Source: an uncultured Lachnospiraceae bacterium (lineage in GTDB: Bacteria; Bacillota_A; Clostridia; Lachnospirales; Lachnospiraceae). Taken from it: a DNA stretch of 13,742 bases. The notes beneath the pieces were generated by a model. That model was given only the letters and a program-made list of their open reading frames with translations. It was not told where the DNA came from and made no database searches. Below, piece by piece: positions 1 through 13,742 of the stretch (the stretch's first letter is position 1; the number at the start of each line of letters is the position of its first letter). Position numbers and translations under genes: made by a program. Where the stretch lies: contig CAMOFS010000009.1 of the NCBI GenBank assembly GCA_946613735.1, positions 1 through 13,742 of the forward strand. The letters are read 5' to 3'.

Positions 1-209
1 AAAAAGGTTGCCTTTTTGGCACCCCGGCTAAGAGCCTCGATACCTATCTGGCCGCTTCCGGCAAACAGATCCAAAAACCGTGCTCCCTGTACGCGATCAC
101 TTATGATGTTAAAAAGCGTCTCCTTGATCCTGTCGGTAGTCGGCCTGGTGCCGTTACCCTCGGGGGATAAAAGAGGAACGGAACGCGCTGTCCCAGCAAT
201 GACACGCAT
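1..209 (-). CDS. rsmD: 16S rRNA (guanine(966)-N2)-methyltransferase RsmD, N-terminal part (cut by window edge)
   Basis: Only the first 69 codons are inside the window; the rest lies off the left end. The protein starts MRVIAGTARS, the usual RsmD opening, followed by GTRPTTDRIKETLFNI (residues 20-35), a signature of this family. The SAM-binding motif I, DLFAGSG, is at residues 47-53, and IEALSRGA follows at 57-64. By family knowledge the enzyme uses S-adenosylmethionine to methylate G966 of 16S rRNA during 30S assembly. The start is supported by a GAGGAG ribosome binding site about nine bases upstream. It follows the pncC gene after 18 bases, so it is probably the next gene of the same operon. 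RsmD is often followed by coaD, which would lie outside this window. Identification is firm; the catalytic NPPY motif cannot be seen here. Confidence 0.95.
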   Translation of the reverse strand, partial: MRVIAGTARSVPLLSPEGNGTRPTTDRIKETLFNIISDRVQGARFLDLFAGSGQIGIEALSRGAKKATF

Positions 210-227
210 ATTACATATCTCCTCAGA

Positions 228-713
228 TCAAAACTGTAAAAACTTATCACTCATCATATCTAAGCCCAGCTTAATGGCATTATCAACAGCCTGGGTCCGG
301 ACCTCACTCCTGTCGCCCGAAAAATTATACCCCCTGGCAACAGACCTTCCCTCATAATAGCATCCGATAAAAACCAGTCCTACTGGATGCGTCTCGTCAA
401 AACCGCCGGGGCCGGCAATACCCGTGGAAGAAAGGGCAATATCGGCACCTGCTTTTTTGGCAGCCTTTTCAGCCATGGCAAGTGCCACTTCCTTGCTGAC
501 CACACCATATTTTTCGATCAGGTAAGGATCCACCCCCAAAAGGTTCTCCTTTGCAGCCTCTGAATAGGTCACATATCCTTCATGGAAAACAGAAGATATA
601 CCGGGATAATCCGTAAGCCTGGCTGCAATAAGACCGCCTGTGCAGGACTCGGCAGTGGTTATGATAAGCTTATTTTTAATCAAAAGCTCTGCCAGAGTAT
701 TAAGCTCATCCAT
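228..713 (-). CDS. pncC: CinA C-terminal domain protein, nicotinamide-nucleotide amidohydrolase (PncC type)
   Basis: This 161-residue protein is a stand-alone CinA C-terminal domain. Family knowledge: it hydrolyses nicotinamide mononucleotide to nicotinate mononucleotide and ammonia, in pyridine nucleotide salvage. The sequence shows TAESCTGG at residues 20-27 (with the conserved Ser23), GYVTYS around 46-51, GVVSKEVALAMAE around 70-82 and STGIAGPGG around 96-104, all hallmarks of the family. Length matches single-domain PncC proteins; the N-terminal MoCF-like domain of full CinA is absent, and the DNA upstream is pgsA, so this is not a truncation. Its ATG overlaps the pgsA stop by one base (TAATG), implying translational coupling, and an AAAGGAA ribosome binding site lies inside the end of pgsA. 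Enzymatic function is inferred from family membership. Confidence 0.93.
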   Translation of the reverse strand: MDELNTLAELLIKNKLIITTAESCTGGLIAARLTDYPGISSVFHEGYVTYSEAAKENLLGVDPYLIEKYGVVSKEVALAMAEKAAKKAGADIALSSTGIAGPGGFDETHPVGLVFIGCYYEGRSVARGYNFSGDRSEVRTQAVDNAIKLGLDMMSDKFLQF

Positions 714-1273
714 TACTTTGTTTCCTTTAAAACATCAACATTTTTGATTATATAATCCACAAGTGAGATCACGGTAAGCGCCAGTGCCACCCACATGAAA
801 ACAATGGATAAAACCTTCCACCAGGAAGGTGAAAAATCAGCTACCATAAAGATCACCATGAGCATCTGGAAAACAGTCTTGAACTTGCCCCAGTAGCTTG
901 CGGCAATGACCACGCCGTTGTCGCTGGCCACAAGTCTAAAGCCTGAAATGATAAATTCCCTGGCAATGATGATGATACAGATCCAGGCCGGAAGCTGTCC
1001 TAAGGATACCAGGCAGATCATGGCCGAGCATACCAAAAGCTTGTCAGCCAAAGGATCCATGAACTTGCCAAAATTAGTGATCATGTCGTATTTTCTGGCA
1101 ATATATCCGTCTGCCGTATCAGTAAGGGAAGCAGCCACGAAAACCAGTGCAGCAATAACTCTGCAGGCTGTGCTGTCAGGAGCGATCAAAAGGAAAAATA
1201 CAAAGAATGGGATCATGATGATCCTTAAAAGTGTAAGCCTGTTTGGCAGATTAAGATTTCTTAAAAACTCCAT
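713..1273 (-). CDS. pgsA: CDP-diacylglycerol--glycerol-3-phosphate 3-phosphatidyltransferase (phosphatidylglycerophosphate synthase)
   Basis: This is an integral membrane enzyme of 186 residues that transfers the phosphatidyl group from CDP-diacylglycerol to glycerol-3-phosphate, the committed step to phosphatidylglycerol and cardiolipin. The full CDP-alcohol phosphotransferase motif D-x2-DG-x2-AR-x8-G-x3-D-x3-D is present: D52, D55, G56, A59, R60, G69, D73 and D77. The N-terminal NLPNRLTLLRIIMIPFF is typical of PgsA rather than of phosphatidylserine synthases. Several hydrophobic stretches (about 18-31, 38-50, 79-105 and 130-170) fit a multi-helix membrane protein. The ATG has a good ribosome binding site (GGGAG, six bases upstream), which sits just past the palindromic element separating it from rimO. 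The stop overlaps the pncC start. Confidence 0.96.
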   Translation of the reverse strand: MEFLRNLNLPNRLTLLRIIMIPFFVFFLLIAPDSTACRVIAALVFVAASLTDTADGYIARKYDMITNFGKFMDPLADKLLVCSAMICLVSLGQLPAWICIIIIAREFIISGFRLVASDNGVVIAASYWGKFKTVFQMLMVIFMVADFSPSWWKVLSIVFMWVALALTVISLVDYIIKNVDVLKETK

Positions 1274-1294
1274 TATACTCTCCCTTCTCTACTA

Positions 1295-1374
1295 CGTTTT
1301 GCTCGCTGTATATGTATCCACCGGAAAACGGAAAAACGTTTTCCTACGTGGACACATATACAACTCGCAAAACT
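1295..1374. repeat. 80-base imperfect palindrome flanked by TACTA direct repeats, possible MITE-like insertion
   Basis: The left arm (about 1296-1330) and right arm (about 1337-1373) are near-complete reverse complements over about 35 bases, with a few mismatches and a 2-base bulge, around a GAAAAA loop. The ends read GTTTTGC and GCAAAAC. Directly outside, TACTA occurs at 1290-1294 and again at 1375-1379, like a 5-base target duplication; the second copy contains the rimO stop codon. Removing the element plus one TACTA leaves an 18-base rimO-pgsA gap with the pgsA ribosome binding site intact. No T-run follows the stem on the minus strand, so it is not an ordinary rho-independent terminator. 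As RNA it would form a long stem between rimO and pgsA. It has no coding capacity. Mobility is inferred. Confidence 0.7.
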
Positions 1375-1376
1375 TA

Positions 1377-2708
1377 CTATTCCGGCATACCTATCAGGTC
1401 ATAATCTTTGGCAGCCGTTATTATTACGTTTTTAAACTCCCCACTTATAAGCTCTTCATCTGTCTCTATAAAGACACTGGAGTCTACGTCCGGTGCGTCA
1501 CGGTGGGACCTGGCCACATATACGCCGTCATCTATACGCCCCTCAACAAAGCAGCTTAAGGTGGAGCCGATAAGCTCATCGTTCTTTTTTTTCACTACCT
1601 CCTGCTGGGTACGCATGATCTCGTCCACCCAGCGTTTCTTGGTGGCATCATCGATCTGATCCGGCATAATGGCAGCCGGGGCACCCTCTTCACGGGAATA
1701 AGCAAAACAACCCAAACGGTCAAATTCCATATCATGGACAAACTCAACCATATCCTGATGATCCGTCTCAGTCTCACCCGGGAAGCCGGCGATCAAAGTG
1801 GTCCTTATAGCTATGTCGGACATGGCATCGCGAAGACGGCCAATAAGCTCAGTGATGTCCTGCTTTGTGGTAAGACGCCCCATCCTTTTTAGTACCTTGT
1901 CCGAACAATGCTGGATGGGCATGTCTATGTAGTGGCATACCTTATCATTTTTTGACATAAGCTCAATAAGCTCATCATCTATCTCCTCAGGATAACAGTA
2001 TAAAAGCCTGATCCAGTGAAGACCCTCTATGGTAGAAAGCTCATTAATAAGGTGGCACAGAGACTTTTTACCATACAGATCCACTCCGTACAGTGTGACC
2101 TCCTGAGCTACAAGTGAAAGCTCCGTGACTCCAGAATCCACCAACTCTTTGGCCTCCGCCAAAAGCTCCTCCATGGGAACGCTGCGGTAAGAGCCTCTGA
2201 TATAAGGAATGACACAATAGGTGCAGCGCTTGTTGCAGCCCTCGGCTATCTTGAGATAGGCAGTGGGCACAGGATTGGTCCTGACCCGTCCCTCTGCAAC
2301 CGGAAGGCCTGACAGGTCATCCAGCCTGCAGACAGGCTCTAGTGGCTTTGTATCCGACAAAAGCTCATCTATCACCCCACAGAGCTTGTCCCAGGAATTG
2401 GTGCCTATCACGGCATCCACCTCGGGTAGCTCTTTTTTAACATCATCAAAAAACCTCTGTCCCAGGCAGCCTGTAAGGATAATGGCCCTGCATATTCCCT
2501 CTTCCTTATAGTCTCCCATCTCGATGACCGTATCTATGCTCTCCTGCATGGCATCCTCAATGAAACTGCAGGAATTGATTATGATGACATCAGCCTCGGC
2601 AGGATCATCGGTGATAACATGTCCGCTCTTTCGCAAGTCAAAGAGCATATGCTCGGTATCACAAAGGTTCTTGTCACATCCTAAGGATACAAAATAGACG
2701 CTTGCCAT
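1377..2708 (-). CDS. rimO: Ribosomal protein uS12 (Asp) methylthiotransferase, radical SAM
   Basis: This 443-residue protein has the three-part MTTase layout. The N-terminal UPF0004 domain has iron-sulfur ligands C11 (in SLGCDKN), C47 (in INSCSF) and C81 (in LTGCLGQR). The radical SAM core has the CxxxCxxC motif at C158, C162 and C165 (EGCNKRCTYCVIP). A C-terminal TRAM-like region lies from about residue 375. By family knowledge RimO adds a methylthio group to the conserved aspartate of ribosomal protein S12 using two [4Fe-4S] clusters. GCDKN followed by a short TRAM domain favours RimO over the tRNA enzymes MiaB and MtaB. The start lies six bases after the rpoZ stop; its best ribosome binding site (GAGGAAG inside the rpoZ end) is rather far upstream, so coupling to rpoZ translation is likely. 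The palindromic element begins just after the stop. Confidence 0.95.
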   Translation of the reverse strand: MASVYFVSLGCDKNLCDTEHMLFDLRKSGHVITDDPAEADVIIINSCSFIEDAMQESIDTVIEMGDYKEEGICRAIILTGCLGQRFFDDVKKELPEVDAVIGTNSWDKLCGVIDELLSDTKPLEPVCRLDDLSGLPVAEGRVRTNPVPTAYLKIAEGCNKRCTYCVIPYIRGSYRSVPMEELLAEAKELVDSGVTELSLVAQEVTLYGVDLYGKKSLCHLINELSTIEGLHWIRLLYCYPEEIDDELIELMSKNDKVCHYIDMPIQHCSDKVLKRMGRLTTKQDITELIGRLRDAMSDIAIRTTLIAGFPGETETDHQDMVEFVHDMEFDRLGCFAYSREEGAPAAIMPDQIDDATKKRWVDEIMRTQQEVVKKKNDELIGSTLSCFVEGRIDDGVYVARSHRDAPDVDSSVFIETDEELISGEFKNVIITAAKDYDLIGMPE

Positions 2709-2714
2709 ATAAGC

Positions 2715-3188
2715 TTATTCTTCCTCTGAAGCTTCTGCTTCTTCCTCTATGGTTTCCTCTTCGTCGTAGTCCTCGTCAAAATCCTCGTCGTCAAAATCAT
2801 CGGAAGAGCCCTTTTTGTCAGCCTCTGCGCGGGCTACAGCCTCCTGCTCCCTGCGGGCCTTTTCCTCTTCCTTTTCGCGCTGTGCAAAGATGGCGTCCTG
2901 CTTGCGCTTTTTCTCAAGGTAATCTGCCAGCTCCTCATTCTTCTCATCGACCTCTTCATCGGTGAGGATCTTGAGCTGACCACTGTAGAGCTCTTCAACA
3001 GCGATGGAAAGAGGCTTCATGCCTGCAGTGCCAGAAATATAGGGCTCGTCTCCATCAATGATCTGACGGGCACGCTTGGCTGTTGCACATACGATGCTGT
3101 AACGGCTGTTGACCACGGGCTCCTCGCCTACCAGTGCGGTCTCCTCATTAACTACCTTCATAAGTTCTACATAAGACGGATGTATCAT
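2715..3188 (-). CDS. rpoZ: DNA-directed RNA polymerase omega subunit with long acidic C-terminal tail
   Basis: Residues 1-75 are the omega core: MIHPSYVELM at the start, SRYSIVCATAKRARQIIDG at 28-46 and KPLSIAVEELYSGQL at 58-72. Omega binds the beta-prime subunit and assists RNA polymerase assembly. The protein is 157 residues long, about twice the usual 60-90. The extra half has a highly charged, probably helical stretch (about 77-126, rich in Glu, Lys and Arg), then an acidic tail from residue 130, where 20 of the last 28 residues are Asp or Glu. The start overlaps the gmk stop in an ATGA, and GAAGGGAG upstream gives a good ribosome binding site. The position directly after gmk is the usual one in Firmicutes. 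The function of the tail is unknown. Confidence 0.94.
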   Translation of the reverse strand: MIHPSYVELMKVVNEETALVGEEPVVNSRYSIVCATAKRARQIIDGDEPYISGTAGMKPLSIAVEELYSGQLKILTDEEVDEKNEELADYLEKKRKQDAIFAQREKEEEKARREQEAVARAEADKKGSSDDFDDEDFDEDYDEEETIEEEAEASEEE

Positions 3189-3829
3189 TTTAATTCTCCC
3201 TTCGCAAATATTTTTAACTCATCCTGCATATCTTTTATATTCTCCAGATTGCGCGAGCTCTTGTAGCGCTCCGCCTGGATAATGGAATGCACAAGCTCCA
3301 CACAGCTGTCCAGATCATCATTGACGATAAGATAATCGTACTTGTCCATCATAAAGGACTGTTCATAGGACAGTGCCAGTCTCTGCTCTATAACATCAGG
3401 CGCCTCGGTTCCCCTTCCTACCAGCCGGTCCTTAAGGGTCTTGGCATCAGGAGGTGTGACAAAAAGCAAAAGTGCCTCAGGGAAAAGCTCCCTGACCTGA
3501 AGTGCGCCGTTGATCTCGATCTCAAGGATCACATCGCGGCCTTCGCCTGTTATCTTTTGTACATAGGGCTTGGGGGTGCCGTAATAATTGCCATTGAACT
3601 GGGTGTATTCCAGCAGCTCGCCTGCCTCTATCATCTGCTCAAACTCATCTCTGGTCTTGAAAAAATAGTCCCGACCGTCCTCCTCGCCCGGGCGTGGGCT
3701 GCGGGATGTGGCTGAGATGGAGAGATTATAGTCGTGCTTTGAAAGCAAATGCTTTACGATCGTGCCTTTGCCTGCGCCGGAAAATCCGGATATGACCGTT
3801 ACTATTCCTTTATACTTTCTTTTTAGCAT
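3185..3829 (-). CDS. gmk: Guanylate kinase
   Basis: Guanylate kinase phosphorylates GMP to GDP with ATP, in the cytoplasm. From the ATG at 3829 the protein has 214 residues, close to the family norm. The P-loop GFSGAGKGT is at residues 15-23, and the GMP-binding signature TSRSPRPGEEDGRDYFF is at about 41-57, with YGTPK at 83-87. A longer reading from a GTG at 3868 would add 13 residues, but the ATG has AAGGAGT seven bases upstream while the GTG has no good site, and MLKRKYKGIVTVISG is a typical beginning. It follows yicC after 54 bases and overlaps rpoZ by four bases (ATGA), a conserved arrangement. Identification is firm; the start is well supported. Confidence 0.96.
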   Translation of the reverse strand: MLKRKYKGIVTVISGFSGAGKGTIVKHLLSKHDYNLSISATSRSPRPGEEDGRDYFFKTRDEFEQMIEAGELLEYTQFNGNYYGTPKPYVQKITGEGRDVILEIEINGALQVRELFPEALLLFVTPPDAKTLKDRLVGRGTEAPDVIEQRLALSYEQSFMMDKYDYLIVNDDLDSCVELVHSIIQAERYKSSRNLENIKDMQDELKIFAKGELK

Positions 3830-3835
3830 TAGTGT

Positions 3836-3842
3836 ACTCCTT
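3836..3842 (-). promoter_or_regulatory. Ribosome binding site deciding the gmk start
   Basis: The minus strand reads AAGGAGT here, six to seven bases before the ATG at 3829. This favours that ATG over the in-frame GTG at 3868, which lacks a comparable site. Confidence 0.8.
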
Positions 3843-3883
3843 GCGATCATTCGCGACCGGATGGCCACCGCCCTATATAATTC

Positions 3884-4759
3884 TTATTCTAAATTCTGTA
3901 TCTGCTCGCGGATCTTTTCGATCAGGGTCTTGAGCTCGATACCTATGTCTGCGATCTCAACATCTGTGGACTTGGATAAGATGGTGTTGCTCTCGCGGTT
4001 GAGCTCCTGAGCTAAAAAGTCCATCTTGCGGCCTACGTCCTGCTTGCCCGTTAGGGTGGCCCTACTCTCGGCTATATGAGACTTAAGGCGGACCATCTCC
4101 TCGTCTATGCATACCTTATCAGCATAGATAACAACCTCGCCGAGGACACGGCTCTCGTCAAGCTTCTGCTCCTGGATAAGATCATGGGTCTTGTCAAGGA
4201 TACGCTTTTTGTATTCCTCTATGATCTGGGGAGAACGCTCTTTAAGTCTGTCGTGAAGCTGCTCCATCCGATCAAGCTTTTCCATAAGGTCAGCCACAAG
4301 ACGCTCACCTTCATCCTGTCTGTTGGCCACAAAAGCCTCAAGTGCCTGTTCGGTGGCCTCTAAAAGAGTGGACTTGAGATAATCCTCATCAAGCTCCGTA
4401 TCTCCTTCTGTAAAGACATCGGGCATACGTGCCAAAAGACCGACGCTTATGGTGCCCTCCAAGCCAAACTCTGCCTGCATCTTTTTTAAGCTCTCGTAAT
4501 ACTTAGCGGCAACGTCGGAATGATAAGAAATATCAACATCACCACCGGTACGCTCATAGGATACATAGACGTCCACCTTACCGCGGCTGATGCGGGACGA
4601 AAGCATCTTTCTCATATCAACTTCACAAAAGGATAAAAGCCGTGGAAGCTTGATACTCAGATCCAGATACCTGTGATTGACTGATTTGATCTCAACAGTG
4701 AGCTTGAACCCATCATCAACTTTTATGTAACGACCGAAACCGGTCATGCTGTTAGCCAT
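3884..4759 (-). CDS. yicC: YicC/YloC family endoribonuclease
   Basis: This 291-residue protein belongs to the YicC/YloC family, reported as endoribonucleases involved in RNA turnover. The N-terminus MANSMTGFGRY and the following EIKSVNHRYLDLSIKLPR region are diagnostic. So is the C-terminal block containing GRKMDFLAQELNRESNTILS, near residues 240-262. Length equals that of E. coli YicC. An ATG six codons upstream (4777) is in frame, but the one at 4759 has GGAG eight bases before it and gives the conserved beginning, so it was chosen. It is the first gene of the housekeeping operon: a terminator and a promoter lie directly upstream, and gmk follows after 54 bases. RNA substrates in this organism cannot be told from sequence. 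Confidence 0.93.
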   Translation of the reverse strand: MANSMTGFGRYIKVDDGFKLTVEIKSVNHRYLDLSIKLPRLLSFCEVDMRKMLSSRISRGKVDVYVSYERTGGDVDISYHSDVAAKYYESLKKMQAEFGLEGTISVGLLARMPDVFTEGDTELDEDYLKSTLLEATEQALEAFVANRQDEGERLVADLMEKLDRMEQLHDRLKERSPQIIEEYKKRILDKTHDLIQEQKLDESRVLGEVVIYADKVCIDEEMVRLKSHIAESRATLTGKQDVGRKMDFLAQELNRESNTILSKSTDVEIADIGIELKTLIEKIREQIQNLE

Positions 4760-4767
4760 ATCGCATT

Positions 4768-4771
4768 CTCC
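4768..4771 (-). promoter_or_regulatory. Ribosome binding site deciding the yicC start
   Basis: GGAG on the minus strand lies eight bases before the ATG at 4759. The in-frame ATG at 4777 has no purine-rich site in front of it, so translation is expected to begin at 4759. Confidence 0.7.
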
Positions 4772-4797
4772 ATCCAAGTTTATTTACATACCAATCC

Positions 4798-4826
4798 ATT
4801 ATAAACAATATAGTATAAAAAAGCAA
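4798..4826 (-). promoter_or_regulatory. Probable sigma-A promoter of the yicC-gmk-rpoZ-rimO-pgsA-pncC-rsmD operon
   Basis: On the minus strand TTGCTT (4826-4821) is followed after exactly 17 bases by a perfect TATAAT (4803-4798). The -35 box matches the consensus only in TTG. Expected transcription start is near 4791, giving a leader of about 32 bases before the yicC ATG. The -35 box and part of the spacer are the T-run of the terminator of the upstream operon, so the two signals overlap. This is a sequence inference with no expression data. Confidence 0.7.
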
Positions 4827-4872
4827 GAAAAACCGTCACAAACCGCGTATTTATGCGGTTTGCGGCGGTTTT
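4817..4872 (-). terminator. Rho-independent terminator of the four-gene kinase operon
   Basis: The arms 4855-4872 and 4829-4846 are reverse complements over 18 bases with two imperfect positions (one mismatch, one wobble in the minus-strand RNA). They enclose an eight-base loop, and the inner eight pairs are perfect (CAAACCGC with GCGGTTTG). On the minus strand the stem runs into GGTTTTTCTTGCTTTTTT, a good U-tract. It lies 27 bases after the stop of the 134-residue gene and separates that operon from yicC. Confidence 0.88.
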
Positions 4873-4873
4873 A

Positions 4874-4889
4874 AAAAACGTTTTCCTAC
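4874..4889. repeat. 16-base sequence shared with the centre of the rimO-pgsA palindrome
   Basis: AAAAACGTTTTCCTAC here is identical to positions 1332-1347, the loop and inner right arm of the palindromic element. Both copies lie just after a stop codon of a minus-strand gene. It contains the self-complementary core AAAACGTTTT. It could be a remnant of the same element or a coincidence helped by low complexity. Confidence 0.4.
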
Positions 4890-4898
4890 CCCTTATTA

Positions 4899-5303
4899 CT
4901 ACTCCTCACTTAAAAGCTTTTTTATCTTTTGAAGACAGCCGCTTCTTACCTCAGAAAGAGCACTGATTTTTTTTTCAACCTGCTTTTTGAACTGATCGTA
5001 TGCCTCCATTATCTGAACTCTATCCTCATCGTCCGGATCTGTATACCTGAATCTTTCAAAGATCTCCTTTCTAAGTTCATCGCAGATGGCCTGTTTCTCA
5101 GCAATATCATAGCGGGCCTTATCCAAAACTATCCTTATATCCAGGATATCATCCTCATAAAAAGCCGCGCCGCCCGGATCCTCCGAAAGGATTTTTTCAA
5201 GATACGGATCTATCCAGTCCAGATCCACCCGGATACGATCCTTTATCCCGGCCTCCTCCACGATGGCTTTTAATCTTTGCATTTGAGTGCTATTGTTTTC
5301 CAT
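4899..5303 (-). CDS. Small charged helical protein of unknown function, last gene of the kinase operon
   Basis: I do not recognise this 134-residue protein. It is strongly charged and predicted all-helical, with probable coiled-coil stretches at about 60-85 (ARYDIAEKQAICDELRKEIF) and 104-132 (FKKQVEKKISALSEVRSGCL). There is no signal peptide or membrane segment. The start is supported by GGAGG five bases upstream. It begins 21 bases after the stop of the giant kinase-domain gene and ends with three consecutive in-frame stops (TAG TAA TAA) before the terminator, so it belongs to that operon. Its size and shape would fit an adaptor, chaperone or regulatory partner of the giant protein, but that is speculation. 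It is a genuine gene by ribosome binding site, spacing and coding character. Confidence 0.8.
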   Translation of the reverse strand: MENNSTQMQRLKAIVEEAGIKDRIRVDLDWIDPYLEKILSEDPGGAAFYEDDILDIRIVLDKARYDIAEKQAICDELRKEIFERFRYTDPDDEDRVQIMEAYDQFKKQVEKKISALSEVRSGCLQKIKKLLSEE

Positions 5304-5324
5304 ATCTGCCTCCGGATGATATAC

Positions 5325-8300
5325 TTATAATGCTTTGCTTTCCGTATCTTCAAAGACCAGAACCTTGCGATATTTATACGATGTAAAAAAGCCCAGTCTT
5401 TCCATAGATGCCTCAAGATTAGCATCGATGGCCTCTGCCATAACGTCAACAAACTGCTTTGTTTCATGGGAACGGACATCCCTGGTAGCATTTGTTGAAA
5501 TAGCCAGCTTTCTCGAAGTAATCCTTGTGATAAGCTTAATAACATTCTCTCTTAATACAGTTACATCAAACTTGGCCTGGCTCCTTATTGCAGCTATCCT
5601 ATCATCCAATTCCTGTCGTTGCCTGTTTTTTTCCTCCTGACTCAGCCCCTTATCAGCTTTTAATGCATCCTTTCTTGCATAAAGAGGATCGCAGGGTTCA
5701 TCAACATGGATCCTTCTATACTCAAAATATGCATTATATGCGTCAATAAGCTGGGGTCCAAGCTGCGGATCATAGGTAGCAATCTTTCTTATGGTGGCAT
5801 CATATTTTGTCGCATCTAAAGCCCGATCCAGAGCAGAAGCTAAGGCTCCTATCTTCTGTTCTTCCCGGCTGGTAGCCACACCGTTTTTGTCCAAAAAATC
5901 ATTGGCAACCACCGAAAGCCTCACCTTTTTGTAGGCCTCCTTGAAGGCTTCCTTTGCAGTCGTTTTTTCATCCTCGTTCTTTGATGCATCAGCCCTTACA
6001 TCCAAAAGCCTGTCTGCCGTTCTTATCATGTCGGTAACTTCATCAACCTTAGTTTTAAGATATGCTTCTATCCTACTGAGCCAAACGGGTGGTTCCCAAT
6101 TGGGAGGTTCCTTTTCAGAACCACCCAGTTTTTTAAGTGCTTCGGGATCTTTTTGTTCTTTTGCCAATTCTGCCTTTAGAGCTTTAAGATTAGCCTCTAT
6201 GGTTCTGCACACATCATTTGGCTGTAGAAAGCCACCAAAGCTGTTTTCCAATGTATATTTCACTTGATCTCTCATAAAATCATCAATACCAACACCTGCA
6301 ATATTGAACCTCAGATTCATAACGAATGTACGAAGCAGCATGGATAAGTTGTTATATGAGCTTTCCAGATTCCTGCTCCTGTACCTGTCTGCCTGAGATT
6401 TTAAAAAACCATATTTAGGATCCATCAATGTAGTATCATAATCATCCAGCATCTCAACATCAACGGAAGTATGCATATCAAAAAGCCTGTTAAAGTATCT
6501 GGTTAGGATAGCACTTTTCGATTCCTTAGGCTTCCTGTCAAATCTCATATCAGAAAGGTATATAGCCGGAAGATCCACGGGATTAGAATCAGTATCAATA
6601 GGAACTCCATCTATGAATTGAAGTGTCTTAACCATTTCTATGACCTGATCACCCATGCCGTCAACAGCATTCTGCAGCCTCAGCTGACATTGTGAAAAAT
6701 TGAAGATAGCAGAGGGTACCTCTATACCCTTTTCCTGGAGCTTCAAAAGAGCAACACCTATCCTTTGGCCGGCAGATTTCTGGTCTCCCAGTGAGAAAAT
6801 CTTTTTCATATCCTTTTCTATGGCGCTGCTATTCTTTTTAAACTTTGCCTGGAATTTGGGTGTCAACAGGTCGTACAGCCCACTTAAGAAACCAGCTGAA
6901 TCTCCTGCCGCGGCTGCAGCCATCATCCTGGTGACATCTATCCGCTGCTGCTCATTTAAGCTGGTAGCATTACCATAATCAATAATGGTTGCTCCGCTGT
7001 CATCGATCATGATATTACCGGCATGCAGATCTCCATGATAAAAGCCTTCTCCAAACACACCCTCCGTAACCCATTTATTGCACAGGGTAGCAAGGTAGTT
7101 CTGACGTAGATCCACTTCTTTAAGAAAGCTTAGGATATCTACACGAAGGAGCTGTAGTCTGACGGCATAATCCTGGTCACTTTCTCCGGCACGCTTTGCC
7201 TTGGCGGCAACAAATTCGGCCACCTTGGTCTTTACCTTGTCCGTATATCTGTCAACAGTATCTCCAGGAGCCTTTTCCAAAAGCATGGAATTGGTGGTGG
7301 CCCCCACACCTTCCACCAGCTTCATTGACCTGACTCCGTCAAAGGTACCGTCCTTATTGGTGGACTTGTCGTATATCTCTCCCTTGACCACGTTTCTGGC
7401 TTCGATGGTAAGATCCAGCTCCTCCTCTATACGGGAAAGCTGTCCCAGATAGGTTGCCTCCATACCACCGTCAGCATCTGTCATCCTGGCACATTTGAGC
7501 ATTACCTCTTTTTCACGCATCATACGGTTTCTGACATCGGGCTTTAAAAGCTTTACTACCACATCCTTGCCATCGGCAGGAAGTCCCGGGCCGTACATCT
7601 TGCAGAAAAAGGTCTGGCCTACAGAGGCTGCACCAAGAGGACGCTCCACCTCTATCTTTGTGATCCTGCCATTGGATCTTTCCACCATACCTAAAAGCTG
7701 AGCCTTTACTATCTCGTCAGGAATGGGGGCCAGCTTTGATTTCACATCACCCAGGGCAGCCTTCATGCTATCTGGCATACTCTCAGTGGGCATACCCTGT
7801 AATATCTTTTGGAACAGAGGCCCTGCGCCCTTTAGGATACCGCCTAAAAGCTCTCCCATTTGCTCGGCCACCAGGTCATCATATACCTTTTTTGCATCAT
7901 CATAAGTCTTTTTCTGTGCTTCGTAGGCTGCCTTTTGCGCTTCTGTGGCGTCAGCAGGCAGCTGTGCAGGAGGCACCGGCTCAGGAGGAAGAGGCTTTTG
8001 CTTTGAAGCATTCCTTACAGCGGCCGCAAACATGCATCGCTTGTCCATGGTGCTTACCCCACTGAAATAGTGTTCAAAGATCAGCTTGATAAACTTACCC
8101 TGACCTGACTCGCCCTGCATGGAGTCTTCTATTATTTTTGCGAGAGCGTCATTTCCGGCCTTTACTCTTTTCGCCTTTTCCTCATCATCTATACCCTTTT
8201 GCTCAGGATCCTTCAGCCCGGCAAAAGGGTCAACCTTTTTATCCTTATCTGCGGAAAAGACCTTTTTAACGCAGTCTGTGATCATGGTCTGAAGCTGATC

Positions 8301-10406
8301 AGAAGCATCCACCACCATATCGTCAATGCTCTTTTCCATATCTGCCAGCTCCTTCACGGAAAAGCCAGCAGGTAACTCGGAAGACGAAAGAGCCGTATCC
8401 AGCTGTGCCTGGATAAGTAAGGAATTACGCTTTGCCTCCAGCTTTTTTTTCTCGGCAACCGGAGCAATAAGCATCAATGCAAAGGCCCTGGACTTTTCAA
8501 AGCCGGCCTTTTTATCTTCAAAAGCAGCCTTTTTATCCTCCAGCTCCTCCATCCTGTCGGCAAGCAGTGACATCTCTTCGATCTCTTCATCGGAAAGAGT
8601 CTCATCGCCTTCTGCTTTATCCGTCAAGGCCTTTAATCTGGCTGAGCAGGTCTGATACTCTTCTTCTTCAGCAAAAGCCTCAGAAAACTCAGGTATATTT
8701 TTCTTGATTTCTTCGTCAGCCTCCCTGTCTGCCGCAGCATCCACAACTGTGCGGATCTTTTTGATGGCATCTGTAATAGACTGCTTGATATCGAAGCTTT
8801 CCTCTCCATCAGCATCATCTCCATCAGCATCATCCGCATCTTTCTTTTTGGAAGCTAAAAATGGAATGCTTGCAAGCACCTTATCCAAAATGGAGGGTGA
8901 AGTCTGATCCTCCCTGTAGCTGTCAGCCACCATGGCTGCAATGGCCGACGTATTGGCTTTGATCATTCTAAGCATGCGCTCACCCGGCTGGGCTAATGTT
9001 TCGTCAGCCTCCCAGGTATGCTGTGAAAAGATGAGCTCAGAAATAAAGTCCCTTACAGCCATCTCTTCCTTTGTCCAGCCCTTCATGTCCTCGGCTGACT
9101 TATCGGTTGATGTGTCGTATACAACCTTTTCATCCATTTCAGACTTTCTGATCCGGGCCTGCTCCAAAAGCTCCATTGTCTCATGGGTATTAACAAACTT
9201 GCCCCTTTTCTCCTGCTCAATTGCATCCAGCTTTTTAAGAGTAGGCTCCAGATCGTATCCATTGGAGGCTGCTATTGCAAGCTGCCGCAGTACTACTGTG
9301 TCGAAATTGGAAAAATACACAGCAGCTTTACCGGTCTTGAGCTCCAAATATCTGGAAAGACGTGAGTTCACGCCCTGGATCTCGCCCAGATCTCGGGATC
9401 GACGCTGGCTTACCTTCATGGTCTCCATGGATGAATCATCCATCTTTACCTCAATGGTAGTATGGACTATCTGCTCATCTATCACCTCTTTTACGGCCTC
9501 AGGATCCATCTTATCCTGTTCCTCGATGATCTTAACATCCAGCTGTGCAACGAGCTCCTGCGCTGACTCCATCATAACCACAGAGCTTGCACCGTTACTT
9601 AGCGTGATGGTCCCGTCCTCGTCCTGACGGATCAAAACCCTGTGGCCTAAAATCTTAACATATGTTGCATATACCTTGCCCTCAGGGATGTCCTTTAATT
9701 CCCGGCGTAGATTTAAAATATCGCCGGCATATGCGGCCGCAGCGGCTTCATCTGTTATCTGGGCGTCGCTGGGTCTGAAGGCTCTCAAAACCTCTAAAAG
9801 CTCCTTGTCCCTTGTCTGAGAGGTCTTTTCCTTTATGGATGCTGTCTTTTCTTTCGGAGCAGATGCAAAATCATAAAGCTTTACACGGACAAAGATATCT
9901 CTGATGGTAGCCTTTAGCGCATCTGCATCTTCGGCCGCATCCTGCATCTGTGGTGCCCCCATAAGTATAGGACGGGATATCTTTTTTGTGGAAAGAAGCT
10001 CCTTGGCCTGTTCTAAAAGCTCTACTTCCCTTATAAGTCGGGTTCTGTTCTTTTCAACAAGCTCCCTTCTGGCCATGCCGGTACTACGGGAAGAATGCCT
10101 CTCGGCACAATACCTGTCGCAGCTATCTATGGCCTTAAAATAAGCCTGTTCGATCTCGGAAAGCTTTTCTGCGGAAAGGTCATCTGCCCAAACTGAGTCA
10201 AGCGCATCCTCTACTGCTTTTAAATTGCCCTTAAGCTCCTTCATCAGCTTGGAATCGCCAAAGGTCTTTTTGCTACTCAAAAGTGATTCTCCAAGCATCT
10301 TGCCTTCTGACACCTGCTGAAGCTCAGAATACTGTTGATCTTCCTGTGTCAGTTCCCTGGTATCCTCTACAGGACTCTGTAATATTTCCTTTTGCTGTTC
10401 TTTCAT
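5325..10406 (-). CDS. Giant (1693-residue) protein with central ABC1/UbiB/ADCK-type atypical kinase domain
   Basis: Residues about 859-1255 form an ABC1/UbiB kinase-like domain. It has the alanine-rich nucleotide loop PLGAASVGQ (923-931), lysine K952 in VVVKLLKP, EEELDLTIEARN (994-1005) and a LLEKAPGD segment matching the family's MEyveG. The catalytic loop is HGDLHAGN (1124-1131; D1126, N1131), the metal motif is DYG (1143-1145), and a C-lobe EKGIEVP follows at 1225-1231. The KxGQ motif that UbiB/ADCK proteins carry before the nucleotide loop appears only as KGAG (859-862). About 850 residues precede the domain: charged helical sequence, an acidic DADGD repeat near 525-535, a K/E-rich repeat near 615-630 and a proline-rich linker (805-818). 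About 440 helical residues follow. No membrane helix is apparent, unlike typical UbiB. Family members act on quinone-type lipids or as ATPases; the substrate here is unknown. Strong GGGGAGG site seven bases before the ATG. Confidence 0.9.
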   Translation of the reverse strand: MKEQQKEILQSPVEDTRELTQEDQQYSELQQVSEGKMLGESLLSSKKTFGDSKLMKELKGNLKAVEDALDSVWADDLSAEKLSEIEQAYFKAIDSCDRYCAERHSSRSTGMARRELVEKNRTRLIREVELLEQAKELLSTKKISRPILMGAPQMQDAAEDADALKATIRDIFVRVKLYDFASAPKEKTASIKEKTSQTRDKELLEVLRAFRPSDAQITDEAAAAAYAGDILNLRRELKDIPEGKVYATYVKILGHRVLIRQDEDGTITLSNGASSVVMMESAQELVAQLDVKIIEEQDKMDPEAVKEVIDEQIVHTTIEVKMDDSSMETMKVSQRRSRDLGEIQGVNSRLSRYLELKTGKAAVYFSNFDTVVLRQLAIAASNGYDLEPTLKKLDAIEQEKRGKFVNTHETMELLEQARIRKSEMDEKVVYDTSTDKSAEDMKGWTKEEMAVRDFISELIFSQHTWEADETLAQPGERMLRMIKANTSAIAAMVADSYREDQTSPSILDKVLASIPFLASKKKDADDADGDDADGEESFDIKQSITDAIKKIRTVVDAAADREADEEIKKNIPEFSEAFAEEEEYQTCSARLKALTDKAEGDETLSDEEIEEMSLLADRMEELEDKKAAFEDKKAGFEKSRAFALMLIAPVAEKKKLEAKRNSLLIQAQLDTALSSSELPAGFSVKELADMEKSIDDMVVDASDQLQTMITDCVKKVFSADKDKKVDPFAGLKDPEQKGIDDEEKAKRVKAGNDALAKIIEDSMQGESGQGKFIKLIFEHYFSGVSTMDKRCMFAAAVRNASKQKPLPPEPVPPAQLPADATEAQKAAYEAQKKTYDDAKKVYDDLVAEQMGELLGGILKGAGPLFQKILQGMPTESMPDSMKAALGDVKSKLAPIPDEIVKAQLLGMVERSNGRITKIEVERPLGAASVGQTFFCKMYGPGLPADGKDVVVKLLKPDVRNRMMREKEVMLKCARMTDADGGMEATYLGQLSRIEEELDLTIEARNVVKGEIYDKSTNKDGTFDGVRSMKLVEGVGATTNSMLLEKAPGDTVDRYTDKVKTKVAEFVAAKAKRAGESDQDYAVRLQLLRVDILSFLKEVDLRQNYLATLCNKWVTEGVFGEGFYHGDLHAGNIMIDDSGATIIDYGNATSLNEQQRIDVTRMMAAAAAGDSAGFLSGLYDLLTPKFQAKFKKNSSAIEKDMKKIFSLGDQKSAGQRIGVALLKLQEKGIEVPSAIFNFSQCQLRLQNAVDGMGDQVIEMVKTLQFIDGVPIDTDSNPVDLPAIYLSDMRFDRKPKESKSAILTRYFNRLFDMHTSVDVEMLDDYDTTLMDPKYGFLKSQADRYRSRNLESSYNNLSMLLRTFVMNLRFNIAGVGIDDFMRDQVKYTLENSFGGFLQPNDVCRTIEANLKALKAELAKEQKDPEALKKLGGSEKEPPNWEPPVWLSRIEAYLKTKVDEVTDMIRTADRLLDVRADASKNEDEKTTAKEAFKEAYKKVRLSVVANDFLDKNGVATSREEQKIGALASALDRALDATKYDATIRKIATYDPQLGPQLIDAYNAYFEYRRIHVDEPCDPLYARKDALKADKGLSQEEKNRQRQELDDRIAAIRSQAKFDVTVLRENVIKLITRITSRKLAISTNATRDVRSHETKQFVDVMAEAIDANLEASMERLGFFTSYKYRKVLVFEDTESKAL
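8805..8834 (-). repeat. 15-base tandem duplication inside the giant kinase gene
   Basis: TCCATCAGCATCATC occurs twice in direct succession on the plus strand. On the coding strand it gives the acidic DADGD/DADGE repeat. It is in frame and probably arose by slippage in an acidic linker. Confidence 0.85.
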
Positions 10407-10429
10407 GATATTTCCTCCCCTGTTTCACA

Positions 10430-11350
10430 TCATGATGCCTGAAGTGTCAATAAAGACTTCCAGATATCGATCATGTTCTTAGTACCCTCTGCTGTCTCAT
10501 CTAAGAAGCTAAGATCCATTGTTATACGCTGGCTGTATGTAAAACCATACTCATCATCCTCTTCCATGGAAAGCAGTCTTTTTATCAAAGCTTTGACCTT
10601 GGGCTCAACAATATGAATGGTAACAGGAGTGTCCTCCCCAAAACGACGGAAATGCTCCACCGCAAATAACAGCATATCCAAAACAGCTGAAGGGTTTTTG
10701 GTAAGAGAAACCATAAAGGTTATCTCCAGCTTTTCACCCTTTTTTGAAAACAGCAATATGGCCTTGGGCTCATCATCTTCCATAAACACCGCCGACTGAT
10801 CCTTCATGAAATCATCAGGTTCAATGGGCATGTCTATATAGTCAGCCCCATGATTGATGATGTCATTGCAAAAGATCATCAGCTTCTTTCTATCAACGGA
10901 TCCCAGGGAAACACTGTGCTTTGAAGCACCCTTTAGCTTATCAGATGTCATAAGGGCGCCTAAAGTAGTCAAAAACGTGCACTGGGGGAGAGGTGTTTTT
11001 TCAATATCAAAGCCATTAAAAATACGATAAAGACCCTCATCTGCCCCTGCAGGGATATCCATATATACCCTATCAACACCATAGGATCTGTGTAATAGAT
11101 CCACCAGCCACAAAAATGACTCCGAGCCTGTACCCGTACCCCGGAAAGGCTCTGAAACATAAAACCAGGTAATCTCCGCTACAAAACCAGTCTTTTTTAT
11201 TATCACACAGCCTGCGGCAGCACCAATTGTCTCTATCCCAAACACAAGTGTCTTCTCATCCTCTGAGAGGATCTCTATAAACCCTTCAGGAAGCATGGGA
11301 AGATAGAATTCGTAGTTAAGTTCATTTATTGGAACCAATCTGCTTTTCAT
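10430..11350 (-). CDS. GNAT-like acetyltransferase protein, probably tandem-domain
   Basis: Residues about 1-130 look like a GNAT N-acetyltransferase fold. AEITWFYVSEPFRGTGTGSE (58-77) fits beta-4 followed by the acetyl-CoA pyrophosphate loop (R70-G-T-G-T-G75), then a helix, a strand VDRVYMDIP (92-100) and the motif-B-like LYRIFNGFDI. Residues about 145-290 seem to repeat the plan (AILLFSKKGEKLEITFMVSL, then LDMLLFAVEHFRRFG) but lack an R/Q-x-x-G-x-G loop, so the second half is probably a degenerate, non-catalytic GNAT. By family knowledge GNATs transfer acetyl from acetyl-CoA to amines on proteins or small molecules; the target here is unknown. It lies 16 bases after the 738-residue gene and 23 bases before the kinase gene, with a GGGGTGAG site five bases before the ATG, so the three are probably cotranscribed. 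Confidence 0.78.
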   Translation of the reverse strand: MKSRLVPINELNYEFYLPMLPEGFIEILSEDEKTLVFGIETIGAAAGCVIIKKTGFVAEITWFYVSEPFRGTGTGSESFLWLVDLLHRSYGVDRVYMDIPAGADEGLYRIFNGFDIEKTPLPQCTFLTTLGALMTSDKLKGASKHSVSLGSVDRKKLMIFCNDIINHGADYIDMPIEPDDFMKDQSAVFMEDDEPKAILLFSKKGEKLEITFMVSLTKNPSAVLDMLLFAVEHFRRFGEDTPVTIHIVEPKVKALIKRLLSMEEDDEYGFTYSQRITMDLSFLDETAEGTKNMIDIWKSLLTLQAS

Positions 11351-11366
11351 AATATCTCACCCCTTC

Positions 11367-13583
11367 CTATTGTCCAATTTTTTGGGCAGCATCAAACATC
11401 AACTGACTATGGGCAAGATCCTGTAGCTTTTTACCGTCTTCTATCATTCTCTCAGCAGCTGCATAAAACCTCTCCTCGTCATTGGCATAAGAATCATCTG
11501 CCAAAAACACAGCCTTTTCCTCATCAGTAAGATGACTTAAGGGATCAGCTTCTCCCCTTACACTAAGGGCCATAAGGGCAGCCCCTCTGCTTTGCATAAA
11601 AAGGCCATCCGCATAGGTGGACTGGATGGTGATCCTTTTGTCATTAAGCTGTGGCATACTGCGCCAGTTGGGATTGATTGTTTTAAGCCGAAGCAGCATA
11701 GACGACGTAAGAGACAGCTCCATCAGGGAACCCTGCACTGCCATCAGGTTAATGGGATTATGATCCTGTTCAAACAGCATAAAGTTGAAATCATGGAGTT
11801 TTCTCACGCTGGTGCCGATGATCTCGGCTGAAAGCTCTTCTTGTTTGTTTTTATAAAAGGTCTCCGCTTCATCGGCATCAAAGGACACGTGCGTATTAAA
11901 AATAAGGCCCATCTCACCTCTTAACTCGTGGGCAAACTCTGCCTTGGTACTGATGAGGTCAGCTCTGTGGATAAGGATCAAAAGAGCGAAGCCCTTAGCT
12001 TTTTCTTCATCCGTGTAACAGTTAAAAAGGTTGTACTTCATGGGATCATTTTTAATGTGCTTACGAACCAGATTCTGATAATCGGGAAATACATAGCGGG
12101 AAATCAAATCTTCGACGGTGTCATCGATATGCTTCATGGTATTGGGCAAACGATCTGACTCGTCTTTTGCCTCCAGCTGCTTATTTACCTCGGGCCTGTA
12201 ACCATACTGGAGCAACAGCATTTGGATGGAATATGACATCTCACCCTTTCCGTAGATAAAGTAGTCAAGGGCTTTCTTCATCTCACTAAGTCCTGCCCTG
12301 TACAAAGCCACGGCATCATCAGCATCTTTTTTACGTAAGGCAAGATTCTTTCTGTAAAGCACATCCTTTAATTCGGGGTTTTTAGATCTGCCCCTTTGCT
12401 TTTCTTCATCCAGGCTTTGTTCCATATTCCTTTCGAGAGCCAAAGAAAGTATCTGCTGCTGCGAAAAACGTCTCTCGTGGAGCATGAAGTTCATAAGTAT
12501 ACGGTCTATGATCTCCCTGTTTCCGGTGACCCGCTGGCTGTTCTCCTCCAGATCAATGCCTTCCATGAAATAGTTCACATCAATATACGACTCCTCACTA
12601 TGATAAACCTCTCTGGCATATGGATATTTTTGCTTGAATTCAGTATCATGACGACTCTGGGCCTCCTGGACAAAATGAGTCTCATGAGCAGGAAATTCAG
12701 CTTTGTACTTTGCCTTTACATCATCGATCTCACTCTTCATAAGATGTATTGCCAGCGCCTCCTGGGCTTTGGCAAGCTCCTTTTTTGCCACAGTGGGATC
12801 CAGTCTGGGGCTGATACCCAGATCCTCTTCGTTAACAATCTCAAGGCTGTGTGTATTAAGGGATTTTTCAAGACAGCTCTTCATAAGCAAAAGGGTCTGT
12901 CTGACGTAACCAAGCTGCCTTTGATCCGCAGCTGAAAGCGTACCTGCATTGGCGGGAACGTTATAGAATTCTACCAAAGCCTTGAGCCTTTGTACCTCAT
13001 CCAGCACCAAAGGAAAATTCTCGCCAATATAATCTGAATCAAACATCCTTGGATTGTACTCACGATACAGATCAGAAGCACTAAAATCTGCAGGCTCCTG
13101 GCCCGCCTCATAATGATACTTCGTAGTGGTATCAAAAACTGCATCCTCGTCATAAGGGCTTAAACCGACAAAAGATGGCTTTTCAATCTTTCTATACCAC
13201 TGGTCTGACAAAAGGCCGGTATACTCCGTGGGATGCTCGGTCAAACCATTGACTCCGATCCTTTCCGAAGCGGCCTTCATCTCTGCTTTCTTTTTCTTTT
13301 TATCCTTGTAGGAAAGATCCGGCTCTTTTGCCGGCTTGAAATGCTCTAAAATATTGGCCGAAACCATCGCCTTGGGCATAAAAAGACTGGGATCCACATC
13401 CTGACGATGGTAGCGGCTTTTCATGCTTTTAAAAAAGGACATCATATTAACTTCTGATCTGATGAAATAGTCCTCATAGCCACCCGTTGTACGAAGCTGA
13501 CCCTCGGCGGTGTCCATGTTGGTGCGAAACGTCTGTGCATAACCGGTCTTACACCTTGTGACCGATGCCTGCTGATCTGACAT
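11367..13583 (-). CDS. Unrecognised 738-residue helical protein, first gene of the kinase operon
   Basis: I do not recognise a family. The protein is hydrophilic and mostly helical, with no signal peptide, no membrane segment and no obvious catalytic motif. Visible traits are a lysine cluster KDKKKKKAEMKAASER (about 93-108), several long charged helices in the middle, and a C-terminal part (about 540-738) that alternates helices with short hydrophobic stretches such as LMAVQGSLMELSLTSSMLLR. The start has a GGGGGAGAG ribosome binding site and a promoter about 70 bases upstream, so it leads the operon with the GNAT-like and kinase-domain proteins. The company suggests it is a structural partner or substrate of those two, which is an inference. 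It has no evident similarity to the flanks of the giant protein beyond shared helical charge. Confidence 0.85.
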   Translation of the reverse strand: MSDQQASVTRCKTGYAQTFRTNMDTAEGQLRTTGGYEDYFIRSEVNMMSFFKSMKSRYHRQDVDPSLFMPKAMVSANILEHFKPAKEPDLSYKDKKKKKAEMKAASERIGVNGLTEHPTEYTGLLSDQWYRKIEKPSFVGLSPYDEDAVFDTTTKYHYEAGQEPADFSASDLYREYNPRMFDSDYIGENFPLVLDEVQRLKALVEFYNVPANAGTLSAADQRQLGYVRQTLLLMKSCLEKSLNTHSLEIVNEEDLGISPRLDPTVAKKELAKAQEALAIHLMKSEIDDVKAKYKAEFPAHETHFVQEAQSRHDTEFKQKYPYAREVYHSEESYIDVNYFMEGIDLEENSQRVTGNREIIDRILMNFMLHERRFSQQQILSLALERNMEQSLDEEKQRGRSKNPELKDVLYRKNLALRKKDADDAVALYRAGLSEMKKALDYFIYGKGEMSYSIQMLLLQYGYRPEVNKQLEAKDESDRLPNTMKHIDDTVEDLISRYVFPDYQNLVRKHIKNDPMKYNLFNCYTDEEKAKGFALLILIHRADLISTKAEFAHELRGEMGLIFNTHVSFDADEAETFYKNKQEELSAEIIGTSVRKLHDFNFMLFEQDHNPINLMAVQGSLMELSLTSSMLLRLKTINPNWRSMPQLNDKRITIQSTYADGLFMQSRGAALMALSVRGEADPLSHLTDEEKAVFLADDSYANDEERFYAAAERMIEDGKKLQDLAHSQLMFDAAQKIGQ

Positions 13584-13619
13584 AGCTCTCTCCCCCTATT
13601 AATTTTTAAAAGAAATGAA

Positions 13620-13637
13620 CGGTTTTCCCTTTAACCG
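13620..13637 (-). other. Small inverted repeat in the leader of the kinase operon
   Basis: CGGTT (13620-13624) and AACCG (13633-13637) are reverse complements separated by eight bases, between the -10 box and the ribosome binding site of the 738-residue gene. It could be an operator or a weak RNA hairpin, but five base pairs is little and chance is possible. Confidence 0.3.
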
Positions 13638-13652
13638 AAATCTTACAGATGA

Positions 13653-13684
13653 ATTATACAACAAATACAGCAACAAGTCTGCAA
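13653..13684 (-). promoter_or_regulatory. Probable promoter of the four-gene kinase operon
   Basis: A perfect TATAAT lies at 13658-13653 on the minus strand, giving an expected start near 13646 and a leader of about 62 bases. The -35 region is poor: at 17-base spacing the hexamer is CAGACT, and the better-looking TTGCAG (13684-13679) is 20 bases away. A weak or activator-dependent promoter is possible. The T-rich DNA upstream and the lack of a gene in the remaining 13685-13742 agree with a regulatory region. Confidence 0.6.
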
Positions 13685-13742
13685 CAAAAAACAAAGTTGA
13701 AAGAAATTGTTTGGAATGGTAAAATTTCATTCCGAGCGAAGC

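Follow-up and report, generated by a model that had tools for sequence, protein, structure and literature searches.

What is encoded by an operon in which the gene of a giant kinase-like protein is packed together with that of a GNAT-fold protein and two further genes, directly beside a set of housekeeping genes? The operon in question lies on the minus strand of a contig from an uncultured Lachnospiraceae bacterium (GenBank assembly GCA_946613735.1, contig CAMOFS010000009.1, positions 1 to 13,742 of the forward strand), and this whole stretch of 13,742 nucleotides is called here the window; all positions refer to it. A preliminary description, made from the sequence alone, had taken the four genes for a self-contained system, possibly a modification machine. 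Our analysis confirms the module and finds its setting of more interest than the first reading suggested: the module is probably a payload island of an extracellular contractile injection system (eCIS) of the Photorhabdus virulence cassette (PVC) type, encoded away from the machine itself. The four genes, in the order in which they would be transcribed, are:

11367-13583, minus strand: P0001, an open reading frame (ORF) for a 738-residue orphan protein, a proposed payload whose partner would be the GNAT encoded after a gap of 16 bases
10430-11350, minus strand: P0002, a 306-residue tandem GNAT, proposed partner of P0001 (loading adaptor, modifier or immunity protein)
5325-10406, minus strand: P0003, a 1693-residue giant, proposed payload with an ABC1/UbiB-type kinase (ORF and profile matches)
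4899-5303, minus strand: P0004, an ORF for a 134-residue helical protein, proposed partner of P0003

The giant had been described as a UbiB-like kinase protein, and profile searches agree: P0003 matches PF03109 (ABC1) with an E-value of 4.4e-20 and 72.3 bits against a cut-off of 22.9. The cut-offs of the UbiB equivalogs of NCBIfam are not reached (77.5 versus 487.55 bits and 40.9 versus 667 bits), and by these scores the protein is a member of the ABC1/UbiB atypical kinase superfamily and not UbiB proper. Hidden Markov models (HMMs) built iteratively on a local set of sequences divide P0003 into an N-domain, a Mid domain, the kinase and a C-terminal domain, within which the following parts are distinguished:

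10302-10406, minus strand: Q-rich N-terminal leader, residues 1-35, proposed loading signal (Q content and structural model)
9996-10301, minus strand: N-domain, residues 36-137, helical, with the motif GDSxxM..K (local-set HMM)
8859-9740, minus strand: Mid domain, residues 223-516 (76 protein records)
6609-7859, minus strand: ABC1/UbiB-type kinase domain, residues 850-1266 (PF03109 and conserved residues in 80 aligned rows, 68 of them non-redundant)
7014-7037, minus strand: HGDLHAGN catalytic loop with H1124, D1126 and N1131 (conservation in the kinase rows)
6972-6980, minus strand: DYG metal-binding motif with D1143 and G1145 (both in 80/80 rows and in 68/68 non-redundant rows)
5364-5612, minus strand: C-terminal domain common to the kinase giants, residues 1599-1681 (73 protein records, 65 non-redundant)

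The kinase domain looks intact and active, as far as conserved residues can tell: K952 is present in 79/79 rows, H1124, D1126, H1128, N1131 and D1143 in 80/80 and G1130 in 79/80, and after filtering at 95% identity the catalytic residues are found in 67/67 (K952) and 68/68 rows. The N-domain occurs in 74 protein records of the local set (77 rows, 69 after dropping those 95% identical), and a D, an S, an M, a K, a Y and an R are invariant in its alignment of 26 rows; for the Mid domain, 73 of the 80 rows are left after the same filter. The leader appears poorly ordered, residues 1-18 being modelled with a predicted local distance difference test (pLDDT) score below 50, and rich in glutamine, which makes up 16% of the first 50 residues of P0003; the median over this length is 10% in N-domain proteins (73 non-identical) versus 2% in other ORFs (473). 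P0003 has no strongly hydrophobic segment (maximum 19-residue hydropathy 1.18). A search of about 5.8 billion protein sequences found, among the 7988 best candidates scored, 58 homologues of 965 to 2636 residues, all 58 with a precomputed PF03109 and two also with a calpain domain (PF00648); the names shown for them in the databases are 'phosphotransferase', from Lachnospiraceae or Eubacterium. The giants are multi-copy in most of the six genomes searched. The N-domain is also found in non-kinase proteins, including some with a calpain-type protease, and a Pfam scan of 20 neighbouring proteins detected calpain PF00648 in seven (six over the cut-off) and Ntox11 in one (2.6e-44). We read the family as modular, with a Q-rich N-terminus and the N-domain followed by a kinase, a calpain-like protease or other parts, which would be a polymorphic payload architecture. 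A tblastn search of plasmids gave no match to P0003, and the 25 pattern matches in viral contigs included no relative.

Two side observations concern the same family. A 75-residue ORF just upstream of an intact giant (L051, 3027-3254) matches the C-terminal domain of kinase giants only and seems to be what is left of a payload gene since lost or replaced. Two related full-length giants of 2093 and 2080 residues (L051, 10462-16743; L059, 2585-8827), each followed by a GNAT gene, have no match to the N-domain, and the first of them has no Pfam match.

The setting of the relatives carries the argument. In one genome (G186), a single contig encodes Pvc16_N, a PAAR-like DUF4280 protein, a sheath with its C-terminal domain, a gp19 tube protein, gp25 and a STAS protein, with an AAA+ ATPase slightly further away; by its gene content this is a contractile injection system (CIS) cluster of the eCIS/PVC type. 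Behind the CIS operon, which on contig C1 runs from about 116.5 kb, the same strand carries large payload-type genes, GNATs and two AAA+ genes, a series that extends to about 182 kb and reaches a kinase giant. The arrangement recurs in G004, where the region between the CIS (about 16 to 38 kb) and about 71 kb encodes giants, GNATs, one more AAA+ protein and calpain proteins. GNAT-paired Ntox11 or N-domain genes stand behind the CIS in G005 and G135, Ntox11-GNAT pairs stand before it in G047, and three consecutive genes of G003 encode a kinase giant, a GNAT and a CIS-type AAA+ ATPase. Clustering of the sequences recovered the same CIS gene set in G001, G004, G005, G047 and G135 and, across the stretches examined, in G003, G006 and G283. 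Relatives of the window's proteins lie within or directly downstream of a CIS operon in four genomes (G186, G004, G005 and G135), and these relatives support placing P0003 among eCIS payloads. Other islands of the same genomes are remote from the machine: in G186 they were found on contigs C5 and C6 and at 228 kb of C1, about 45 kb past the last gene of the CIS island. Because such CIS-distant islands occur in these genomes, the position of the window's island, remote and next to housekeeping genes, is not unusual.

Several features of these loci deserve mention in their own right. Signalling-type genes (a STAS-like gene and pairs of membrane-protein genes, named by eye or by cluster) occur in or beside payload islands (L001, 1-1749; L039, 1955-4466; L053, 16707-18439; L054, 7331-9066; L097, 4748-6450); among them is an ORF resembling a histidine kinase, 11 bases ahead of a giant, and in G186 a STAS gene (PF01740) ends the CIS operon. 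Upstream of Pvc16, Lachnospiraceae CIS operons encode large proteins (clusters c2 and c15) that to the eye have signal or membrane segments (L084, 8108-16423, and its counterparts in L087, L090, L093, L094, L098, L108 and L109), and with them the CIS could be cell-anchored rather than free. Finally, two different paralogues of the CIS-type AAA+ ATPase can be present in one genome, the second nearer to the payload genes (L097, 12020-16629; L106, 11649-16365; L086 with L055), and these second paralogues are possibly payload-specific loaders.

The association also holds across genomes. The sheath (PF04984) was found in 9/10 giant-bearing genomes versus 0/12 genomes without the N-domain, the latter taken in the order of listing rather than drawn at random; neither this comparison nor those made for Ntox11 and for the type VII secretion system (T7SS) included G012, which is positive, or the weakly positive G008 and G120. 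The tenth giant-bearing genome, G002, has neither sheath nor Pvc16; it encodes a CIS-type AAA+ ATPase of 68% identity, followed by another AAA+ protein, a GNAT and a Q-rich protein of 901 residues. We then turned to 299 genomes drawn from the family of G004, the Lachnospiraceae, with G004 itself included because it has giants. The N-domain was detected in 8 of them (E<=1e-4), the sheath in 54 and Pvc16 in 24. Taken alone, the sheath was rejected as a CIS marker: its 54/299 genomes fell into two size classes, of which the short one is by our own reading prophage-like, and for this reason Pvc16 was used as an additional marker. Pvc16 was present in 6/8 N-domain genomes at E<=1e-4 (Fisher test, p 3.6e-6, with kinship ignored and independence thereby overstated), and in 6/6 N-domain genomes versus 18/293 others (p 1.4e-7) at E<=1e-5, a threshold chosen once the hits had been seen; without G004 these values become 3.4e-5 and 1.8e-6. 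A class-wide scan of 391 genomes found the N-domain at E<=1e-5 in three, namely G004, G186 and the new G587. The last of these was picked by its N-domain alone and then tested: it has Pvc16, and its giant adjoins a GNAT gene.

The GNAT genes form the second recurrent element. In the first set of segments, a GNAT gene stood directly beside 21/47 giants on the same strand and within two genes of 25/47, against a background of 19/304 GNATs among ORFs not adjoining a giant. Of the eight Ntox11 genes, seven are directly followed by a same-strand GNAT gene; the eighth (G283) ends 289 bases before the end of its contig and has a GNAT gene directly preceding it. A tree was built from the 51/58 GNATs within the length limits, and for 25 of these the class of the gene upstream served as a label. 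The payload classes could be placed on it with 7 changes versus 8 to 14 in 1000 shuffles (0/1000 as good), and the kinase partners versus the rest with 2 changes, a value reached by 1/1000 shuffles. Since the tree follows the class of the upstream payload, GNAT and payload type go together.

The preliminary description had also called P0002 a tandem GNAT-like protein, and this is borne out by a match to PF00583 (E 3.3e-6) and by a structural model with two GNAT-like halves (pLDDT 86.8), from which the assignment can be made confidently. Two sites of the protein are of special interest:

11126-11143, minus strand: RGTGTG acetyl-CoA loop motif in the first GNAT half, residues 70-75
10793-10795, minus strand: Ser186 in the second half, the most conserved tandem-GNAT residue (S in 38/39 rows)

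P0002 thus keeps the acetyl-CoA loop expected of an active GNAT and may be an active acetyltransferase. Within the family the loop motif (R/QxxGxG/A) is not fixed, being present at the aligned place in 26/39 rows of the tandem-GNAT alignment. Because it is missing in 13/39 rows while the serine of the second half is kept in 38/39, we read the tandem-GNAT protein as primarily a binding partner and only secondarily an enzyme. The window's GNAT gene follows the 738-residue gene and not the kinase giant, which is itself followed by P0004; in the tree, P0002 belongs to a fork of weak support, and the labelled GNATs of this fork come after genes that encode no kinase. P0004 matches residues 205-294 of a 494-residue protein encoded directly downstream of a kinase giant in G001 (L037, E 6e-7), a match that is one stretch of one neighbour gene in the local set. 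From this order and this match we infer the pairs P0001 with P0002 and P0003 with P0004. P0001 is, as first stated, a protein without family: it has no Pfam, NCBIfam or PADLOC match and one homologue, 99% identical, among 7995 candidates scored in the protein search. It begins with MSDQQ and has no strongly hydrophobic segment. Its GYxDYF-like N-terminal motif had raised the idea that it belongs to the AAA+ (c3) family, which was rejected: full E-values were 6 to 28 in three local rounds, the hhalign probability was 0.2%, and shuffled P0001 reached higher best scores with all six of the family HMMs for which it was run.

Put together, P0003 would be a giant cytosolic payload with a disordered Q-rich leader, an N-domain and Mid domain for docking or loading, a kinase acting as the effector and a conserved C-terminal tail. 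By analogy with PVC payloads, the leader and N-domain may take the giant to the loader. P0001 would be a second payload, and each of the two would have a small partner of its own from the next gene (P0002 for P0001, P0004 for P0003). The GNAT-fold partner would bind its payload and pass it, with or without acyl transfer, to the loading ATPase of the CIS (AAA+, Pvc15-like), which the window's own genome presumably encodes elsewhere. Sheath contraction would then inject the payload, and inside the target cell the kinase may phosphorylate or reprogram its targets. Two elements of this scheme, the logic of one partner per payload, in which each giant polymorphic payload, be it a UbiB-type kinase, a calpain protease, Ntox11 or another, has its own tandem-GNAT-fold adaptor to the AAA+ loader, and the use of ABC1/UbiB kinases as injected effectors, are put forward tentatively, as we hold them somewhat more likely to fail than to stand; to our knowledge, the roles described for such kinases are confined to regulating quinone and lipid metabolism within the cell.

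The role of the small partners admits two other explanations, both of which keep the payloads. The first is a toxin-immunity island, in which the GNAT-fold and 134-residue proteins are immunity proteins and delivery is as in the CIS reading. It would fit the presence of one partner behind many toxins, the partner clades that track toxin class and the seven of eight Ntox11 genes followed by a GNAT gene; unrelated toxins, however, usually have immunity proteins of unrelated folds, while here a single GNAT fold serves kinase, protease and Ntox11, and a PVC payload directed at a eukaryote calls for no immunity protein, which makes this explanation doubtful. In the second, the GNAT protein is an acyltransferase whose payload is activated or protected once acylated, much as with HlyC and HlyA. 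We judge this unlikely: the tandem-GNAT fold, the RGTGTG kept in P0002 and the motif of 26/39 rows speak for an enzyme, but the 13/39 rows without the motif do not, and neither does its loss in P0066, a relative 55% identical to P0002.

More distant from the data is a stand-alone intracellular complex for modification or signalling, in which kinase and acetyltransferase jointly regulate proteins of the cell. In its favour, the kinase motifs are intact, and STAS and membrane-protein genes adjoin several giants. On the other hand, the giants are multi-copy and strongly divergent, with calpain or other parts replacing the kinase, they are linked to CIS loci and, via their GNAT partners, to the Ntox11 toxin family, and they occur sporadically (8/299 genomes), so that we regard an intracellular role as quite improbable. 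Least probable is export by another route (type VII secretion or release by lysis) with the CIS merely co-resident, since, although the T7SS is used by many toxins of Firmicutes and many giants are located away from the CIS locus, EssC was over the cut-off in 2/10 giant-bearing versus 3/12 other genomes, without association, whereas CIS genes occur in 10/10 giant-bearing genomes (in G002 by the AAA+ ATPase only) and the giants share one stretch with the CIS in G186 and G004; the T7SS was accordingly rejected as their export route.

Several observations count against the reading of the operon as a CIS payload island. No CIS gene was recognised within the window, and the closest RimO among 145 genomes is 60% identical to that of the window. 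Many other giants do not adjoin a CIS, and 18 of the 24 Pvc16 genomes lack the N-domain; the CIS therefore does not require these payloads. The relatedness of the genomes inflates the independence assumed by the Fisher tests, and G008 and G120, with the weakest N-domain hits (E 8e-5), are without sheath and Pvc16, their AAA+ matches being of 28 to 34% identity. As for the partners, after merging of segments a GNAT gene was directly beside only 23/45 giants (20/35 away from segment ends). The GNAT tree is shallow, with 9/48 inner branches starred and many long branches, two length-excluded GNATs behind kinase giants are absent from it, and P0002 falls outside the kinase-partner clade. Finally, P0001 scores at most 1.1 bits against ten family HMMs of this system, c3 among them, and so matches nothing in it, and residues 1-560 of P0003 gave no fold match in the PDB at E<=1e-3.

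The layout of the module agrees largely with what was first described. The four minus-strand ORFs (738, 306, 1693 and 134 residues) stand at the positions listed above and are separated by 16, 23 and 21 bases, every start codon has a purine-rich Shine-Dalgarno-like sequence on its 5' side, and one operon of four genes is upheld. The strong terminator was confirmed by folding: 4825-4870 reaches -23 kcal/mol with a z of -5.7, equalled by 0/200 shuffles. The promoter stood in part, with a perfect TATAAT; no -35 box was seen by eye at 16 to 18 bases, and the scan gave no minus-strand promoter there. The edge of the contig lies 159 bases 5' of P0001 and limits the view of the operon's upstream end. 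The two signals are:

13653-13658, minus strand: TATAAT, candidate -10 box
4837-4864, minus strand: intrinsic terminator (scan and folding)

The terminator parts the module from genes that we take from their sequence to be yicC, gmk, rpoZ, rimO, pgsA and cinA. GC content is 45.2% in the module versus 47.9% beside it, and at third codon positions 44-50 in the module genes versus 55-58 in rimO, gmk and yicC, a slight difference only. No RNA family of Rfam was found within the window. Among the neighbours, the RpoZ (omega) homologue at 2715-3188 (minus strand) has 157 residues and a long acidic tail (SSDDFDDEDFDEDYDEEETIEEEAEASEEE); this is unusually long for an omega subunit.

What did not survive is the notion of a self-contained system. 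The set of four was not seen to recur; what recurs are giant payload genes mixed with tandem-GNAT genes. A modification machine is likewise unsupported; giants and GNATs, often many per genome, occur with a CIS, in some CIS-bearing genomes directly behind it. A stand-alone defence system was also considered and rejected, PADLOC models matching 0 families for all four proteins.

If the payload reading is true, giant ABC1/UbiB-type kinases would be an added class of CIS payload and tandem-GNAT proteins an added class of partner in gut-type Lachnospiraceae. ABC1-family kinases would get a use outside quinone biology, and giant proteins annotated only as 'phosphotransferase' would become candidate CIS effectors. 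As payloads and partners come in many matched pairs, the way in which eCIS machines choose and load very large payloads would become testable. Two of the six contigs looked up name roe-deer abomasum or colon, and possible targets for this reason are ciliates, fungi, other bacteria or the animal.

How does the module compare with known systems? With the UbiB/ABC1/ADCK kinases (PF03109), P0003 shares the A-rich loop (GAASVGQ), the invariant K952, HGDLHAGN and DYG. It differs by KxLQG, where the motif of UbiB is KxGQ, by scores far under the equivalog cut-offs and by a kinase placed inside a polymorphic protein of 1693 residues. Unlike other tandem GNATs (2wpx of the clavulanate pathway and the Legionella effector VipF), P0002-type genes adjoin giant payload genes, and their family has an acetyl-CoA loop that is not fixed and a near-invariant serine in the second half. 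The make-up of the module had been called undescribed, and this holds as far as the literature searches went: among the matches listed, nothing tied CIS to UbiB-type kinases or tandem GNATs, and those on giant Butyrivibrio proteins, on calpain or UbiB in Lachnospiraceae and on Ntox11 held no description of these payloads or partners. The adaptors and Eag chaperones of type VI secretion system effectors differ in fold, and binding between GNAT and payload is a proposal of the present work; they would be alike in role, as dedicated effector-loading partners, by the available part of PMC12881460. The accessible text of PMC8213781 does not contain the word 'acetyltransferase' and names a histidine kinase as a regulator only. 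According to the portions available, PVC payloads have disordered N-terminal signals of 50 to 70 residues and are loaded with the AAA+ ATPase Pvc15 (PMC11495950), Ntox11 is listed with the PVC secretion system (PMC3482391) and a domain of a Legionella effector is likened to Ntox11 (PMC11696984). The eCIS/PVC systems thus provide the closest parallel: relatives of the window's genes stand beside Pvc16_N, sheath, tube, gp25, PAAR-like and AAA+ genes, with payload-type genes downstream, seemingly disordered N-terminal leaders and Ntox11 as one nearby payload class. What sets the present case apart are the giant kinase and calpain payloads with their new N-domain, the tandem-GNAT partners, the several payload islands per genome and the Lachnospiraceae hosts.

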